IMG/VR virus record: IMGVR_UViG_3300039018_000259 | Span: 1 to 35,981 of that record | Reading direction: 5' to 3' (one strand) | Length of the DNA stretch: 35,981 nt | Origin: a virus | Shown here: positions 1-35,981 of the stretch, piece by piece | Layout of the letters: every line of letters begins with the position of its first letter | Numbering within the stretch: position 1 is the first letter of the stretch | Translations under genes and position numbers: made by a program | The notes under the pieces: generated by a model | Told to the model about the DNA's origin: nothing | Seen by the model: the letters and a program-made list of their open reading frames with translations, nothing else | Databases searched by the model: none

Positions 1-127
1 GCAGGTGTTTTTGATTGCGGAATCGGTAGTTGAAATCGGGCCATTTCTGCAAATTGACATCCTGCCAGCCCGGCACACAGAGGATGAAACAATGACTTGG
101 CGGGTTCAAATACCCGCTCACTTCGTC
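1..127. repeat. Contig-terminal direct repeat (circularity overlap), left copy
   Basis: Bases 1-127 are identical to 35855-35981. An exact 127-base overlap is what a de Bruijn assembler using k=127 leaves when a circle is closed, so I read it as proof of a circular or circularly permuted molecule and not as a biological terminal repeat. A reading frame runs across the join without a break, which supports this. P22-like phages package by headful and give circularly permuted DNA, consistent with this interpretation. Confidence 0.9.
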
Positions 128-184
128 CTAGCAATAGCCCAGTTTCGCCCAAGCGCCAAGCCTCAGATGGGGTTTGCTCCCTAG
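2..184 (+). CDS. Cassette 4 hypothetical protein, 3' part of an 88-aa gene
   Basis: The gene starts at 35772 and crosses the contig join. In this window its frame opens at base 2 and stops with TAG at 182-184. The whole protein is 88 aa, starting MKQIILLQPDLPESLLDLL. I do not recognise a family. It has no signal peptide or membrane segment that I can see, and looks like a small soluble protein with alternating hydrophobic positions. It is the only sensible gene of its cassette, oriented towards the attC as most cassette genes are, with a GGAG ribosome site before the ATG. Function unknown. Confidence 0.6.
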   Translation, partial: QVFLIAESVVEIGPFLQIDILPARHTEDETMTWRVQIPAHFVLAIAQFRPSAKPQMGFAP

Positions 185-230
185 GAAACCAATGCATAAA
201 CCCCCCGTTCATAGTCTTTCGTTTTCGTAT

Positions 231-317
231 GCATAACTGGTTGCTCGTCACGGACAGTCACCGTCAGGTTGCGGCTTCGCCGCAAGTGGTGCCTGCCGGA
301 CAGCGCTAACGTTTGTA
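231..317 (+). repeat. attC: attC site of cassette 4, fused to phage DNA
   Basis: An 87-bp imperfect palindrome. The left simple site is GCATAAC (231-237) and the right core begins with G at 311. The centre forms a perfect 7-bp hairpin TTGCGGC-TTC-GCCGCAA (269-285). From 232 to 313 it is identical to the site at 34733-34814 (82 bp). Its right core reads GTTTGTA instead of GTTATGC because the bases after the first G come from the phage target, as expected when attC recombines at a secondary site. Confidence 0.85.
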
Positions 318-595
318 ATCGTCTGTCTTGTCTGATCTGCCCAGTGCTTCGCCATGGTTCGCGTTCCTTCGCAGCTGTAAAGCACGTATTGGTCGAAGTT
401 GGCATGGCACCCAATCACACCAGGTCGTGCGCAGCACAGCGGAAAGCAATCTAGGTCATTCTCTTTTATGCCTTTTCCCGTTGGTGGCGGGTGCGCTGCT
501 TGGCTATAGCCCTCAATGCCGCAAAAAATGCAGGGCAGTGCAGCTACTAGGCGGCGGTAGGTTTCGCTACGCACTGGCGCGGCTTTGGGGAACAT
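248..595 (-). pseudogene. HNH-type phage endonuclease, 3' end replaced by integron cassettes
   Basis: The 115-aa frame starts MFPKAAPVRSETYRRLVAAL. A metal-binding nuclease-like core follows: CIFC, then AAHPPPTGKG, then FPLCC with GCHANFD, the Cys/His pattern of HNH or NinG-like phage recombination nucleases. The ATG (593-595) overlaps the previous stop as TGATG and has an AAGGA site. Only residues 1-95 are native. After Asn95 the frame enters the attC site and adds 20 foreign residues to a stop at 248. The original last 16 codons and stop lie at 34153-34204, and joining 312 to 34204 gives an uninterrupted 111-aa gene. Only the C-terminal tail was swapped, so the product could still be active. 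Confidence 0.8.
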
Positions 596-4451: not shown

Positions 4452-4879
4452 GCAGCCCCCAATGCTTGCTTTGCCATTTGAACCACTGTCGGGCTTCTGC
4501 GCAGCCCGCCTTGCACATCACGCAAGATTGCTTTAGCCCATGCTTTGTGATCTACGGTAGTTTTTGGGGCCGATAAACCCTCCATCACGCGCCGCACTAT
4601 CGCAGGGTCAGCTTTCGGCAATAACAGCTCTAAAGGCTCATTCCTAGGTGCAGACCGGCACAATGCACGAAACTGGATAACCGTAGGCGGCAAGTCTGGC
4701 AAGTTTTGCAATGCGTACTGAATCGACTCTGGAGACTTTTCAAAACCAGATAGCTCGTGTAGCCAGTCCGATTTAACAGAGTTCATATCCACATCGCGCC
4801 ACCGTCCTAAAAACTGCTGCCCGTAGGTCAATGTCAGCTTGTCAAAAATCCGGTCAACCCAAGAGAGTGGCATTGTCAT
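4448..4879 (-). CDS. Lambda P-like replication protein (helicase loader type)
   Basis: 143 aa, with VDRIFDKLTLTYGQQFLGRW, VKSDWLHELSGF and IQYALQNLPDLPPTVIQFRALCR. This is the same layout as the central part of lambda P-type proteins (helical, 'WARELAGF..ALENLPERPPTAPQFK'-like). It lies directly after the DUF1376 initiator gene and overlaps it by 26 bp, the O-P arrangement of lambdoid phages. The probable role is to bring the host replicative helicase to the phage initiator. It is shorter than lambda P (233 aa). The start may be ATG 4879 or 4873. Confidence 0.7.
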   Translation of the reverse strand: MTMPLSWVDRIFDKLTLTYGQQFLGRWRDVDMNSVKSDWLHELSGFEKSPESIQYALQNLPDLPPTVIQFRALCRSAPRNEPLELLLPKADPAIVRRVMEGLSAPKTTVDHKAWAKAILRDVQGGLRRSPTVVQMAKQALGAA

Positions 4880-5615
4880 TGGTTACTCCATTAAAAAATT
4901 CAGGTTCATAAGCTGCTACGCCGGGGGCTGCAATTTGGGTTCTTTGGCGTTGTTCAGCTCTCCATGCGGGTTCTGCGTTAGATGGCGGTTTCTTGGCGTT
5001 TCTGCACCAGTTTCTCCAAGTTGCTTGCCAATCAAGTTTCACACCACGCGGCCCAGATTGTGCGCTCCAATAATCTCTAAACTTTGCAGATTCCTCCAGA
5101 CAGTTTGTCAAACCCTGATCTACAGCAAATTTCATATCAACTTGGAAGTCAGTAGGCAAGCGGGTACCGCGTGTTGTCTTACTACTGGTTCTTGGTTCTT
5201 GGTTTATGGTTCTTGGTTCATGGTTAGCTAGGCTCTGGGTTCTTTCTGGGTTAGCCTTGGGAACCTGCTGGGAACCTGCTGGGTTCTTTGGCTCATCAAC
5301 ACTAGCTTTGCGTCTACCACCTTTTGCGCCATTTGCCCTAGATCGCTCAGCTTTTATGTTGTATTCGCGTATTTCCATTTCACATCTAGCATGCGAATAC
5401 CCGTTTTCTGTAAACACAAAGAAGTCAGTTAGAACACTTTCAACAACATCAGAACCCATGCGTAACCTGCGGCTAACCCACTGGGTATCTGCTGGGATAG
5501 GTTGCTCTGTGTCGTAGTACATCTCAAGCAACCGGCGGTAAGCCAAATCCTCAAGGTCTGACAAATGCGCCGTTGCAGCTTTGTAGTCGCCAATATGGTG
5601 CGGGTAGTAGTTCAA
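4854..5615 (-). CDS. DUF1376 replication initiation protein (O-like), TTG start
   Basis: 253 aa. The N-terminal NYYPHHIGDYKAATAHLSDL (from residue 2) followed by DLAYRRLLEMYYDTEQPIP is the DUF1376 domain, typical of phage initiator proteins. A Lys/Arg/Gly-rich linker follows, then an acidic and aromatic C-terminal half. The TTG at 5615 is chosen because it overlaps the stop of the leader gene as TTGA, sits 7 bases after AAAGGGG, and puts the conserved NYYP at the N-terminus. The linker (NHEPRTINQEPRT) is encoded by iteron-like repeats at 5187-5225, as lambda O contains its own origin. Confidence 0.85.
   Translation of the reverse strand: MNYYPHHIGDYKAATAHLSDLEDLAYRRLLEMYYDTEQPIPADTQWVSRRLRMGSDVVESVLTDFFVFTENGYSHARCEMEIREYNIKAERSRANGAKGGRRKASVDEPKNPAGSQQVPKANPERTQSLANHEPRTINQEPRTSSKTTRGTRLPTDFQVDMKFAVDQGLTNCLEESAKFRDYWSAQSGPRGVKLDWQATWRNWCRNAKKPPSNAEPAWRAEQRQRTQIAAPGVAAYEPEFFNGVTNDNATLLG
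5187..5280. repeat. Iteron-like repeats inside the initiator gene, probable replication origin
   Basis: 5187-5225 holds five and a half tandem 7-bp units with consensus GGTTCTT (variants GGTTTAT, GGTTCAT). 5259-5280 is an exact tandem duplication of GGGAACCTGCT, and GGTTCTTT motifs lie between. On the coding strand the units read AACCAAG. They encode the linker of the DUF1376 protein. Lambda-type phages have iterons bound by O within the O gene, so an origin is the natural inference. No adjacent AT-rich unwinding element is obvious within 50 bp. Confidence 0.6.
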
Positions 5616-6181: not shown

Positions 6182-6480
6182 ACGCTTGCGTTCCTTCCAG
6201 TTGCAAAAGGCACCACTTTGCTTGGCGTAGGGCTTTGGGTGAAGTTGTGTGTTTGTGGGCGAAAAGCTCTAGGGTCTGAGTTCTTGCCTGTGTTGCGGTA
6301 GTACCTAGCCAGAGCGTTTTCGCGGTTGCGCTGGATAGCGGCTTGCTTTGCCAGCTCTTGCTCCGTTGGCTCTGTGGGCGCGATCTTTATGCGCTCTAGG
6401 TAAAAGCAGTTTCGCCCTGCTGGTATGTCTTCTAGGCCGGTAGCAATCACGCCTTGGGGTTTGCCTTGTAAGTAAATCAT
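6178..6480 (-). CDS. Phage early protein (100 aa)
   Basis: 100 aa, MIYLQGKPQGVIATGLEDI. The N-terminal half is predicted strand-rich and the second half basic and helical (EQELAKQAAIQRNRENALARYYRNTG). It overlaps cro by 4 bp upstream and the 86-aa gene downstream, so all three form one transcript. No family recognised. Confidence 0.6.
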   Translation of the reverse strand: MIYLQGKPQGVIATGLEDIPAGRNCFYLERIKIAPTEPTEQELAKQAAIQRNRENALARYYRNTGKNSDPRAFRPQTHNFTQSPTPSKVVPFATGRNASV

Positions 6481-6662
6481 GCCGCCCTCGCTTGCTTCTT
6501 TTCAAACTGCGGTTTGTACAAAAACCCAATCACCTGGCGCTCTATTGATGCCGGTAGCGTCTCAGGCCATTGGTACACGGCTTGCACTGATTTATAGCCA
6601 AGTGCTGCCTTGGCCTTCTGGTGTGTGCCGCCCAGTAGTTTTATTGCTTCGGTTTTAGTCAT
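6477..6662 (-). CDS. cro: Cro-like transcriptional repressor
   Basis: 61 aa, MTKTEAIKLLGGTHQKAKAALGYKSVQAVYQWPETLPASIERQV. This is the helix-turn-helix of the Cro family (helix 2 GGTHQKAKAALG, recognition helix KSVQAVYQW), at the usual 60-70 aa length. It sits at the start of the minus early operon, facing the divergent plus operon, and would bind operators in 6663-6813. No CI-type partner is visible, so Cro may be the only phage regulator of this switch. The predicted transcription start coincides with its ATG. Confidence 0.85.
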   Translation of the reverse strand: MTKTEAIKLLGGTHQKAKAALGYKSVQAVYQWPETLPASIERQVIGFLYKPQFEKKQARAA

Positions 6663-8616: not shown

Positions 8617-9270
8617 ATGTCATTTATTGCAACAGACAGCGGCGGCGGTAACTTTAAGCGCGTACCCCAAGGCGTATTCATTGGGCGCTGCTACTCACTT
8701 ATTGACCTTGGCACACAGCACACCACCGGCCAATATGGTGACAAATTCCAACACAAAATCCGCATTGGCTGGGAGTTGTTCGGCGAAGACGAGCAAGGCG
8801 CACCGCTCACAATTGATGTGGATGGCAAGGAAATGCCGCTCACTATTAGCAAGAGCTACACAGTTAGTCTGCACGAAAAATCTGGCCTGCGCCGCGATTT
8901 AGCTGCATGGCGTGGGCGTGACTTCACCGAAGACGAGGCTAAGGCGTTTGACGTGTCCAAGTTGATGGGCGCGTTTTGCATGATTAACGTCACCACCAGC
9001 GAAACCAACGGCAAGACTTACAGCAACGTGGCAGGCATTACGCCGTTACCGGGTGCGCTCAAGAATGCCAAGCCTGCACCAGTACATGAAAACGTGGTGT
9101 TTGATTTGGACGAGCCAGATATGGCAGTGTTTGCCACCTTCCATGAAAAGCTGCAAGAGGCTATCAAGAAGTCTCCAGAGTGGGCGCAAGCAACCAAGGG
9201 GACGCAGCCACCAGTAGGCAGCACTGGCAGCGGGTTTGACGATATGCCTGGCGAGGATTTCCCCTTCTGA
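8617..9270 (+). CDS. Phage single-stranded DNA-binding protein
   Basis: 217 aa, MSFIATDSGGGNFKRVPQGVF. Strand-rich N-terminal domain with FIGRCYSLIDLGTQ, KIRIGWELF and LTISKSYTVSLHEKSGLRRDL, then an acidic aromatic tail (DDMPGEDFPF). This order, a beta-rich core plus a short acidic C-terminus ending in Phe, is typical of phage SSB-type proteins in recombination modules. It should coat ssDNA during replication or recombination. A GGA site precedes the ATG. Confidence 0.75.
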   Translation: MSFIATDSGGGNFKRVPQGVFIGRCYSLIDLGTQHTTGQYGDKFQHKIRIGWELFGEDEQGAPLTIDVDGKEMPLTISKSYTVSLHEKSGLRRDLAAWRGRDFTEDEAKAFDVSKLMGAFCMINVTTSETNGKTYSNVAGITPLPGALKNAKPAPVHENVVFDLDEPDMAVFATFHEKLQEAIKKSPEWAQATKGTQPPVGSTGSGFDDMPGEDFPF

Positions 9271-34136: not shown

Positions 34137-34152
34137 ATCAACCCCTTCGGCA

Positions 34153-34204
34153 TCATCGGTAATCATCGTTCAGTCCTTTCGGGCGTTGCCCGCTTAGCTC
34201 TTTG
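34153..34204 (-). pseudogene. Detached 3' end of the HNH-type gene
   Basis: On the minus strand these 52 bases encode the last 16 residues (KELSGQRPKGLNDDYR) and TGA of the gene whose first 95 codons lie at 311-595. Together 284 + 52 = 336 bases, exactly 112 codons. The stop overlaps ATG-containing sequence of the next gene, as elsewhere in this operon. The 1.96 kb between the two parts is the cassette array. Confidence 0.85.
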
Positions 34205-34278
34205 TTATGTTTCTGTGGTGTGGGAAGCGTTATAAATAGTGGAAACAAAGCAATGGCAACATATAAGCACCACCACCA

Positions 34279-34737
34279 ATGATTGAAGCCTTCTTTTCTA
34301 ACATTTACGCTATTCTTGGCGCTATCGTGCTGGCTTGCTTTGTTGGTTACATCGCTTGGCGCAACGGCCACAAAGCTCGAAGAGCCATCGCCTGCGATGC
34401 TTTTCGCCGTGCCGTCCTCGACGCTCTGCCGGGGCTTTACCCCGACACCGTCAACTGGCCCGTTGATATTCGGGGCTATTTGAGAAACGCCTTTCCGGCA
34501 CTTCAGTCCGCCGTTGTCGCATTTCGCCCCTTCGTCAGCAGGCGAAAACTGAGCGACTTCGATTTGGCTTGGCATAGCTTTTACGGGGCAACAGACACCC
34601 AAAATGAAGCCCAAAAGTATCACCAATATATGGGCTTTCACGAACCGGGGACGACTAGCGCGTCCGGCCATGCTAAATCTCAAGAGCTTTTTCATACAAA
34701 TGTTCAAAACCTTTTTAAGTTCGCAAATGAAACATAA
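34279..34737 (+). CDS. Cassette 1 protein: membrane-anchored, typical integron cassette family
   Basis: 152 aa. MIEAFFSNIYAILGAIVLACFVGYIAW is an N-terminal membrane anchor. A cytoplasmic domain follows with ACDAFRRAVLDALPGLYP, AFPALQSAVVAFRPFV and KYHQYMGFHEP, ending LFKFANET. I recall proteins of just this build as common cassette genes in chromosomal integrons, function unknown. The stop TAA lies inside the attC left core (ACATAAC), a frequent cassette feature. It is transcribed against the phage early operon. The complementary frame (34153-34752) is judged a shadow. Confidence 0.75.
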   Translation: MIEAFFSNIYAILGAIVLACFVGYIAWRNGHKARRAIACDAFRRAVLDALPGLYPDTVNWPVDIRGYLRNAFPALQSAVVAFRPFVSRRKLSDFDLAWHSFYGATDTQNEAQKYHQYMGFHEPGTTSASGHAKSQELFHTNVQNLFKFANET

Positions 34738-34818
34738 CTGGTTGCTCGTCACGGACAGTCACCGTCAGGTTGCGGCTTCGCCGCAAGTGGTGCCTGCCGG
34801 ACAGCGCTAACGTTATGC
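34732..34818 (+). repeat. attC: attC site of cassette 1
   Basis: 87-bp imperfect palindrome from ACATAAC (34732-34738) to GTTATGC (34812-34818), with the same perfect TTGCGGC-TTC-GCCGCAA centre as the sites at 231. The recombination point is between G34812 and T34813. Confidence 0.85.
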
Positions 34819-35238
34819 CCCAAGGGCAGCATCTGCAACGCGGGCCAGATATGAAAGCTCTGCCGTGTCGCCACCGCAGTCGATTTCTTCGTCTTCGGTC
34901 AAACTGGCGTAGGCCGGGTGCCCCTTGATGCGGTCGCGTAGCTCAGTCAACGCAGAATGCAAGTCGTCGTACCTGTCGCCGCGCACGTAATGCACATCAC
35001 TGTCGTACTGCTTGTCCTCGCACCAAGAAACCTCGCCATCGCGGCAGCAGTTCCAGTGCGTGTCGTCATGCTCAAGCTCGCCGTACACCAGCCACAGTTC
35101 TGCGGGCGGGTCAGTCACACGCGGCGGCGCGCTGCACTCGTCGTCCTCCGCGTTGGGGCCTAACACCTCGTTCGACTTGAGAGCCAACGGCACCGCAGCG
35201 TGTTCGGGCTTGTGGCTGTCGGGTAGTTCAGTGGTCAT
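34813..35238 (-). CDS. Cassette 2 protein, reverse orientation (141 aa)
   Basis: 141 aa, MTTELPDSHKPEHAAVPLAL, then AELWLVYGELEHDDTHWNCCRDGEVSWCEDKQYDSDVHYVR and a helical end (DDLHSALTELRDRIKGHPAYASL..YLARVADAALGA). An acidic soluble protein, and the CRDGEVSWCED..DSDVHYVR segment resembles small phage or prophage proteins. The start at 35238 has GGAG 9 bases upstream within the attC arm. The stop uses the TTA of its own cassette end (34813-34815). The gene therefore fits exactly inside cassette 2 but runs opposite to the usual direction. A longer frame to 35700 crosses an attC and is not favoured. Confidence 0.6.
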   Translation of the reverse strand: MTTELPDSHKPEHAAVPLALKSNEVLGPNAEDDECSAPPRVTDPPAELWLVYGELEHDDTHWNCCRDGEVSWCEDKQYDSDVHYVRGDRYDDLHSALTELRDRIKGHPAYASLTEDEEIDCGGDTAELSYLARVADAALGA

Positions 35239-35272
35239 CGCGTTTGTCTCCAAGTCAACTCGAACGTTATGC
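35158..35272 (+). repeat. attC: attC site of cassette 2 (different class, 115 bp)
   Basis: GCCTAAC (35158-35164), 5-base spacer ACCTC, then GTTCGACTTG. On the other side CAAGTCAAC, then TCGAAC, and GTTATGC (35266-35272). The left arm has one extra C relative to the right arm (GTTCGACTTG against GTTGACTTG), the extrahelical base that sets attC orientation. The orientation agrees with the other three sites. Sequence and length differ from them, so this cassette has a different origin. Confidence 0.75.
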
Positions 35273-35509
35273 ATAAAAATTGGAAGCTCGTGCTGTTGAA
35301 TGTAAACGGGTTCATTCCCCGCAAGCAAACACCTTGGCCAAGGTACAGCACGAACATCCCCGCAAGGTTTGCAGTCTTGCGGTCTGGTGGCAAAGAGGGG
35401 CCAATCGTTACCGGACGTAAACCGGGCAAAGACCTCGTAACCACCAACCAACGCCCGCATAACTGCGGTCGCTGGGGCCTCAGCGGTCGCTCTTCCAAGG
35501 GGAAATCCC

Positions 35510-35602
35510 ATGTTGGAGTTCACGCTATCGGTGAGCATCACTGTGGCGCAGATCATCAGGCTCGGCAGAGTTCTGGCGGTCATCATTGCGCTTCTGGTGT
35601 AG
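35510..35602 (+). CDS. Cassette 3 hydrophobic peptide (30 aa), uncertain
   Basis: MLEFTLSVSITVAQIIRLGR followed by VLAVIIALLV, with AAGGGG 7 bases before the ATG. It could be a small membrane peptide. Cassette 3 has no convincing larger gene. A 159-codon frame begins at 35269, directly at the cassette boundary (MHKNWKLVLLNVNGFIPRK), and runs into the attC, but from about residue 60 its composition (many His, Ser, Gly, Arg) looks non-native. It may be a short or decayed gene. Confidence 0.35.
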   Translation: MLEFTLSVSITVAQIIRLGRVLAVIIALLV

Positions 35603-35669
35603 CTACTCACCTTTCTATGGCGGGCTGGGAAGCAATTTCCAGCCCGTTCATAGTCTTTCGTTTTCGTAT

Positions 35670-35756
35670 GCATAACTGGTTGCTCGTCACGGACAGTCAC
35701 CTTCAGGTTGCGGCTTCGCCGCGTGTGGCGACTGCTGGACAGCGCTAACGTTATAC
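35670..35756 (+). repeat. attC: attC site of cassette 3
   Basis: 87 bp from GCATAAC (35670-35676) to GTTATAC (35750-35756). It is like the sites at 231 and 34732, with several changes in and beside the central stem. The 25 or so bases before it match those before the site at 231, so cassettes 3 and 4 share their 3' ends beyond the attC itself. Confidence 0.85.
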
Positions 35757-35771
35757 ATCGGAGTGTGGAAA

Positions 35772-35981
35772 ATGAAACAAATCATTCTTTTACAGCCTGA
35801 CCTGCCAGAGTCACTGTTAGACCTGTTGTGCGAGCACATACAGCGCAGTGATCCGCAGGTGTTTTTGATTGCGGAATCGGTAGTTGAAATCGGGCCATTT
35901 CTGCAAATTGACATCCTGCCAGCCCGGCACACAGAGGATGAAACAATGACTTGGCGGGTTCAAATACCCGCTCACTTCGTC
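35772..35981 (+). CDS. Cassette 4 hypothetical protein, 5' part of an 88-aa gene
   Basis: MKQIILLQPDLPESLLDLLC, starting 21 bases after the cassette boundary with a GGAG site. It reaches the window end in frame and continues at position 128 to the TAG at 182-184. No family recognised. The unbroken frame across the contig join supports circularity. Confidence 0.65.
   Translation, partial: MKQIILLQPDLPESLLDLLCEHIQRSDPQVFLIAESVVEIGPFLQIDILPARHTEDETMTWRVQIPAHFV
35855..35981. repeat. Contig-terminal direct repeat, right copy
   Basis: Exact copy of 1-127. See the left copy. Confidence 0.9.

Follow-up and report, generated by a model that had tools for sequence, protein, structure and literature searches.

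An integrase-less array of four integron cassettes in a P22-like phage, probably inserted at a G/TT point of an HNH-type gene by a host integron integrase

The DNA analysed here, called the window throughout, is the whole of the IMG/VR virus record IMGVR_UViG_3300039018_000259 (35,981 nt), and it carries four integron cassettes in a row that split a small HNH-type gene of a P22-like phage near its 3' end. In the reading that we prefer, and to which we assign a probability of roughly 0.8, an integron integrase supplied by the host cell (probably one of the Comamonadaceae or of their near allies) inserted the cassettes into this gene at an attG-like G/TT point, and the phage has carried the resulting CALIN as a passenger. 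An earlier sequence-only reading of the same DNA had described a four-cassette array in a P22-like phage and had explained it as an insertion that would make phages vehicles for cassettes; the present analysis confirms the observation and supports the interpretation.

The two ends of the record are an exact repeat of 127 bp (1-127 = 35855-35981), which closes it into a circle of 35854 bp. Around the array, PHROG matches were obtained for portal, scaffold, coat, the head closure protein Hc3 and DNA ejection proteins, in agreement with the proposed P22-like assignment. The claim that no integrase is present was equally borne out: across the entire record neither the integron integrase profile (TIGR02249) nor the tyrosine recombinase/phage-integrase domain profile (PF00589) gave a match, and the positive controls of both searches were recovered. 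On the circle, the array starts at 34205, passes the contig end and stops at 311, with the following units:

34205..34812, plus strand: cassette 1, 608 bp, with G/TT boundaries and an attC at its end
34813..35266, plus strand: cassette 2, 454 bp, with G/TT boundaries
35267..35750, plus strand: cassette 3, 484 bp, with G/TT boundaries
35751..35981, plus strand: cassette 4, first part, which goes on at 128-311 (35855-35981 repeats 1-127)
1..311, plus strand: cassette 4, last part, including the end repeat, with G/TT boundaries; the whole unit (35751 to 311 across the ends) measures 415 bp

Recomputation reproduced the four unit sizes that had first been proposed. Each unit begins with TTAT, cut at G/TT, and finishes with ACG, and the phage DNA after the last unit reads TTTGTAATCG; as had been noticed, G/TT stands at both edges of the array, and it is also found at the join of the restored phage sequence. 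The stretch 34153-34204, which had previously been counted within the array, is in fact the 3' end of the phage gene.

The recombination sites were scored with two covariance models, R1 built from ten chromosomal Comamonadaceae attC sites only and R2 built from 16 more diverse attC sites, among which no window sequence was included:

34731..34818, plus strand (folding on the minus strand): attC site 1; R1 89.7 bits, R2 66.3 bits; DNA fold z = -4.25
35157..35272, plus strand: attC site 2, longer and of a different type; R2 50.5 bits, R1 only 8.7 bits
35669..35756, plus strand: attC site 3; R1 85.5 bits, R2 61.0 bits
230..317, plus strand: attC site 4, the last of the array; R1 84.5 bits, R2 62.6 bits

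Three of the sites scored 85-90 bits with R1, and because this model misses site 2 the broader R2 was needed; it recovered all four in a single orientation, folding on the minus strand, at 50-66 bits against 11.0 bits for the next best place in the window. The E-values of both models are rough, since calibration was shortened, and the gap in bit score is large. The ten chromosomal sites share one hairpin, in which compensatory changes occur and the L'' arm (the bottom-strand 3' arm) bears unpaired bases, a hallmark of attC, and under R1 the window sites fit this consensus fold; site 2 folds weakly alone, yet it fits R2. Hence the four attC-type sites proposed from the letters hold up both in score and in secondary structure. 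Phage DNA (G/TTTGTA) supplies the remainder of the R' box in site 4. An Rfam gathering scan matched no family, and neither plasmids nor named phages gave a blastn match to the array. With four sites of attC fold within about 2 kb on the circle and no integron integrase, the array is a CALIN, a class for which Qi et al. ask that attC sites lie within 3 kb of one another (PMC9892861); intI being absent from the whole record, it is not a complete integron.

The gene that received the cassettes lies in two pieces on either side of the array:

34153..34204, minus strand: 3' end of the HNH-type gene, 16 codons and stop; left array flank ending TTTG/; its frame joins with 312..595
311..595, minus strand: 5' part of the HNH-type gene, 95 codons; right array flank AACG/TTTGTA; phrog_18962 and phrog_131 (HNH endonuclease)

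Joining 34204 to 312 yields a 111-aa HNH-type frame ending SGQRPKGLNDDYR, in which, just as had been predicted, 95 codons are followed in frame by 16 codons and the stop, and the C-terminus of the family is regained. Its N-terminal part has a match to phrog_18962 and a weak one to phrog_131, a family of HNH endonucleases. In five relatives from other phages the C-terminus reads G-x-x-P-x-x-L, with G, P and L invariant in the six aligned sequences, so that the intact gene expected in related phages does exist there and bears the predicted motif. Joining lifts the profile score merely from 97.7 to 99.4 bits, and it is therefore the motif, rather than the score, that supports the restoration. As it stands, the interrupted gene reads into the antisense of the last attC, where it acquires a new 20-aa tail and a stop; the HNH core is unaffected, and the gene may still work.

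The right edge of the insertion is exact, as the earlier claim of a single-base insertion point requires; the left edge is less sharp. Nine bases at the left cut (window 34195-34204, AAAGAGCTA on the coding strand, three codons for KEL) are absent from all aligned HNH relatives, with which the restored protein minus these codons would align free of gaps, and the left edge is therefore uncertain by about 9 bp. These bases are possibly the relic of an earlier cassette event. We also considered the left flank 34160-34204 as a decayed fifth attC, given that CTTAGCTCTTTG/TTATG is like an attC 3' half, and rejected it: the stretch has no R1 or R2 score and no fold, and it encodes the HNH C-terminal motif.

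An empty version of the locus was found in the phage whose HNH-type gene comes closest to that of the window (86%), IMGVR_UViG_3300008450_000179 (35,821 bp; hereafter G001). At the insertion point of the window it reads ATTG/TTAGTAATCG (ATTG/TTAG), with G/TT at the same place. The point thus has the attG-like character of a G/TT that is neither attI nor attC, for the left flank has no attC score. G001 is without about 41 bp of the window's flank at the end of the HNH gene, and because of this it is not the base-for-base ancestor; with the 9 bp, it is a second difference at the target besides the gain of cassettes. When window 34140-34204 is set against 8800-8860 of the G001 locus (L088), the window displays two similar stretches, CCCGAAAGGACTGA and GCCGAAGGGGTTGA; the intervening sequence may thus have been lost from G001.

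G001 possesses a two-cassette array of its own elsewhere, at the 3' end of the orthologue of the following window gene:

6477..6662, minus strand: cro-like gene, uninterrupted in the window; phrog_409 transcriptional regulator

The first unit of that array is cassette 4 with its 5' end cut off, 95.8% identical to the window over 313 bp, and the second, which terminates in GGCG/TTAAACC, carries a short attC of its own. The backbone segments of the two phages are mostly 70-90% identical, with a few short stretches higher. Because cassette 4 exceeds most of the backbone in identity and sits at different genes in the two phages, two separate acquisitions from one cassette pool would fit better than common descent. 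Among 2.9 million viral contigs, further copies of the window's attC subtype occur only in G001.

These alleles bear directly on how the cassettes entered. Qi et al. (2023) proposed that cassettes get into phages by off-target recombination, either homologous or illegitimate (PMC9892861), and the array might accordingly have been taken up by such recombination with the cell's integron rather than by an integrase; the nine additional bases at the left array edge in the window and the truncated left end of the G001 array do indicate that some non-integrase events happened. Nevertheless, the right edges are exact in both phages (AACG/TT in the window, GGCG/TT in G001), the window array consists of whole cassettes, and the empty point in G001 has G/TT, a preference that illegitimate recombination would not predict. 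We regard this route as unlikely, and favour insertion by an integron integrase.

The placement of the contig ends raises a different doubt, that of an assembly artefact in which bacterial cassettes were joined to a phage, or the arrays of two variants were merged in cassette 4. The contig does end within this very cassette, which is also present in a second phage (G001), and the 127-bp end repeat would correspond to a typical k-mer length. In a chimera, however, the two sides of the array would not be halves of a single phage gene that restore both frame and motif when joined, and independent contigs of the same clade also bear attC arrays (G001 and L072, described below). Variant merging in cassette 4 could alter the number of cassettes, not the insertion at the HNH gene, as one and the same gene supplies both flanks. 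An artefact thus appears more improbable still than entry by homologous or illegitimate recombination.

For the origin of the attC type, a 19-base piece of the repeated site was scanned against 84,980 bacterial and archaeal genomes. It matched a Giesbergeria MAG (Comamonadaceae; L090), in which a site 85-89% identical lies in an array adjoining intI, and the integron integrase encoded there is intact (452.6 bits to TIGR02249). A wider search gave matches in 21 of the 401 Comamonadaceae genomes, and in about a dozen cases the match covered most of the site; in these genomes the attC type occurs at 77-88% identity, in one case beside an intact intI and in another beside an intI fragment at a contig edge. 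A match of the 19-mer in a Myxococcales contig was set aside as chance, having no attC around it. The phage terminase was matched in only one of 251 Comamonadaceae genomes, at 45%. Judged by its attC type, the host probably belongs to the Comamonadaceae or to a group closely allied with them. The protein of cassette 4 was not found in the 401 Comamonadaceae genomes, nor was that of cassette 2 in these and 399 Burkholderiales genomes, a search run with no known holder genome as control.

The shared attC type also weighs on the idea that the units belong to a repeat family specific to phages, or to a transposon with a 3-bp target duplication, which would likewise leave GTT at both edges. Such an element would have to account for an attC fold with compensatory changes, for matches to chromosomal integrons beside intI, for the lack of any recombinase in the record and for four different cargoes that each end in attC; the covariance models contradict it, and we consider it barely credible.

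The cargo of the cassettes is as follows:

34279..34737, plus strand: cassette 1 ORF, 152 aa, hydrophobic N-terminus, no known family
34816..35238, minus strand: cassette 2 ORF, 141 aa, antisense to the array, compared with phage contig L117
35510..35602, plus strand: candidate 30-aa hydrophobic peptide of cassette 3, MLEFTLSVSITVAQIIRLGRVLAVIIALLV, a putative product read from the letters
35772..35981, plus strand: cassette 4 ORF, 88 aa, first part, continuing to 184 across the contig ends

The cassette proteins matched no family in Pfam, NCBIfam, PHROGs or PADLOC, and therefore no role in defence or anti-defence can be claimed for them. No relative of the cassette 1 protein was found in viral contigs. 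The cassette 2 DNA recurs at 91% over 366 bp in L117, with 21 silent and 11 replacement changes in the ORF, which is therefore under purifying selection. Its C-terminal module of about 45 residues (ALTELRDRIKGHPAYA...) is strongly conserved in the window, in L117 (8001-8396) and in L118 (7827-8210), and the N-terminal parts of these proteins vary. Cassette 3 has no convincing long ORF and may be a small-peptide or RNA cassette. A terminator-like inverted repeat follows its candidate peptide (region 35510-35640), and a further inverted repeat pairs 35282-35296 with 35345-35359.

The window is not alone among phages in bearing attC sites. In about 1 Mb of related phage loci, attC scored above chance only in G001 and in L072 (IMGVR_UViG_3300027721_000003), a third P22-like relative of the same clade, which has two clear sites and one marginal:

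4760-4820, 5111-5169 and 5369-5426 of L072: attC sites of 39, 41 and 17 bits, upstream of the terminase genes

Between the L072 sites lie ORFs that run antisense to the array, in the same direction as the phage genes. A relative of an L072 phage gene in Stenotrophomonas phage S1 has no attC nearby. L117 and L118, found through the cassette 2 protein, are unrelated phage contigs with several attC each; some of their sites were used in training R2, whose scores are thus partly circular for them, and R1 gives 25-40 bits. The same protein led to two other phage contigs with long attC arrays, L131 (G403:6500-13500) and L132 (G404:15000-21040), in which some eight and six sites, respectively, score above 30 bits; neighbouring genes include an endolysin in one, and RecT, an exonuclease and a single-strand binding protein in the other. 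In just three phages the array's last attC meets a gene's 3' end at an AAC codon that is in frame (window 311-313; G001 locus L088 3419-3430; L072 near 4767), and there the antisense attC gives a new C-terminus and a stop, the L072 gene being unproven as a phage gene.

A wider proposal, which we put forward only tentatively and think rather doubtful, is that the P22-like clade is a recurrent landing place for cassettes, entered by integrase at G/TT points within the last few codons of small phage genes; there the final attC, read antisense, would furnish a C-terminus and a stop and so preserve the gene. On the same proposal some cassettes, for instance cassette 2, whose C-terminal module is conserved, may circulate mainly among phages.

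For the window itself, the preferred course of events would be the following. During infection or lysogeny the cassettes would reach the phage, the host cell supplying the integron integrase, which would recombine the single-strand-folded attC of a cassette with the non-classical, attG-like G/TT at the 3' end of the HNH gene. The four could arrive together, as a single circle, or successively at the attC sites thus created. As the phage is without such a recombinase, the cassettes, if still excisable, would be mobile only in cells that supply IntI, and the phage would transport them between cells as passengers.

The route of cassettes into phages has been an open question, and the insertion alleles of the window and G001 point to the integrase itself and name a probable source lineage that can be tested. 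If the proposal is true, phages carry cassettes from one cell's integron to another, including cassettes absent from the bacterial genomes searched.

The nearest known systems are the phage CALINs of Qi et al. (2023), who detected 17 attC clusters in a set of 10,705 phage genomes and showed that attC from three virulent phages recombine with attI1 (PMC9892861). Those of Tetrasphaera phage TJE1 and Pseudoalteromonas phage PH101 are likewise integrase-less attC clusters in tailed phages, with cargo mostly of unknown function and with a single orientation as in the window. Consequently, the cassettes in a tailed phage to which the sequence-only reading drew attention are indeed present here and are not new in kind. 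The phage attC of Qi et al. are active in an attC x attI1 assay; the window offers an interrupted gene, an empty relative and a shared cassette elsewhere, so that the event is readable at base level. Insertion outside the classical sites is also on record: according to the account of Loot et al. (2024) in PMC12901181, cassettes enter bacterial genomes at attG sites, and integron integrases use GTT triplets outside attI and attC, including secondary sites in plasmids (PMC10127599). The window resembles these in its G/TT point that is neither attI nor attC and differs in that the target is a phage gene, several cassettes stand in a row and the integrase donor is not seen. Compared with the sedentary chromosomal integrons of Comamonadaceae, such as that of the Giesbergeria MAG, the attC are of equal length and 85-89% identical; the bacterial locus has intI adjoining its array and the phage has none, and the bacterial genomes searched yielded neither cassette 2 nor cassette 4. 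What is new relative to all of these is that the insertion allele can be read at base level, that a relative is empty at the same point, that one phage clade has captured cassettes more than once and that a lineage can be named as the probable source.
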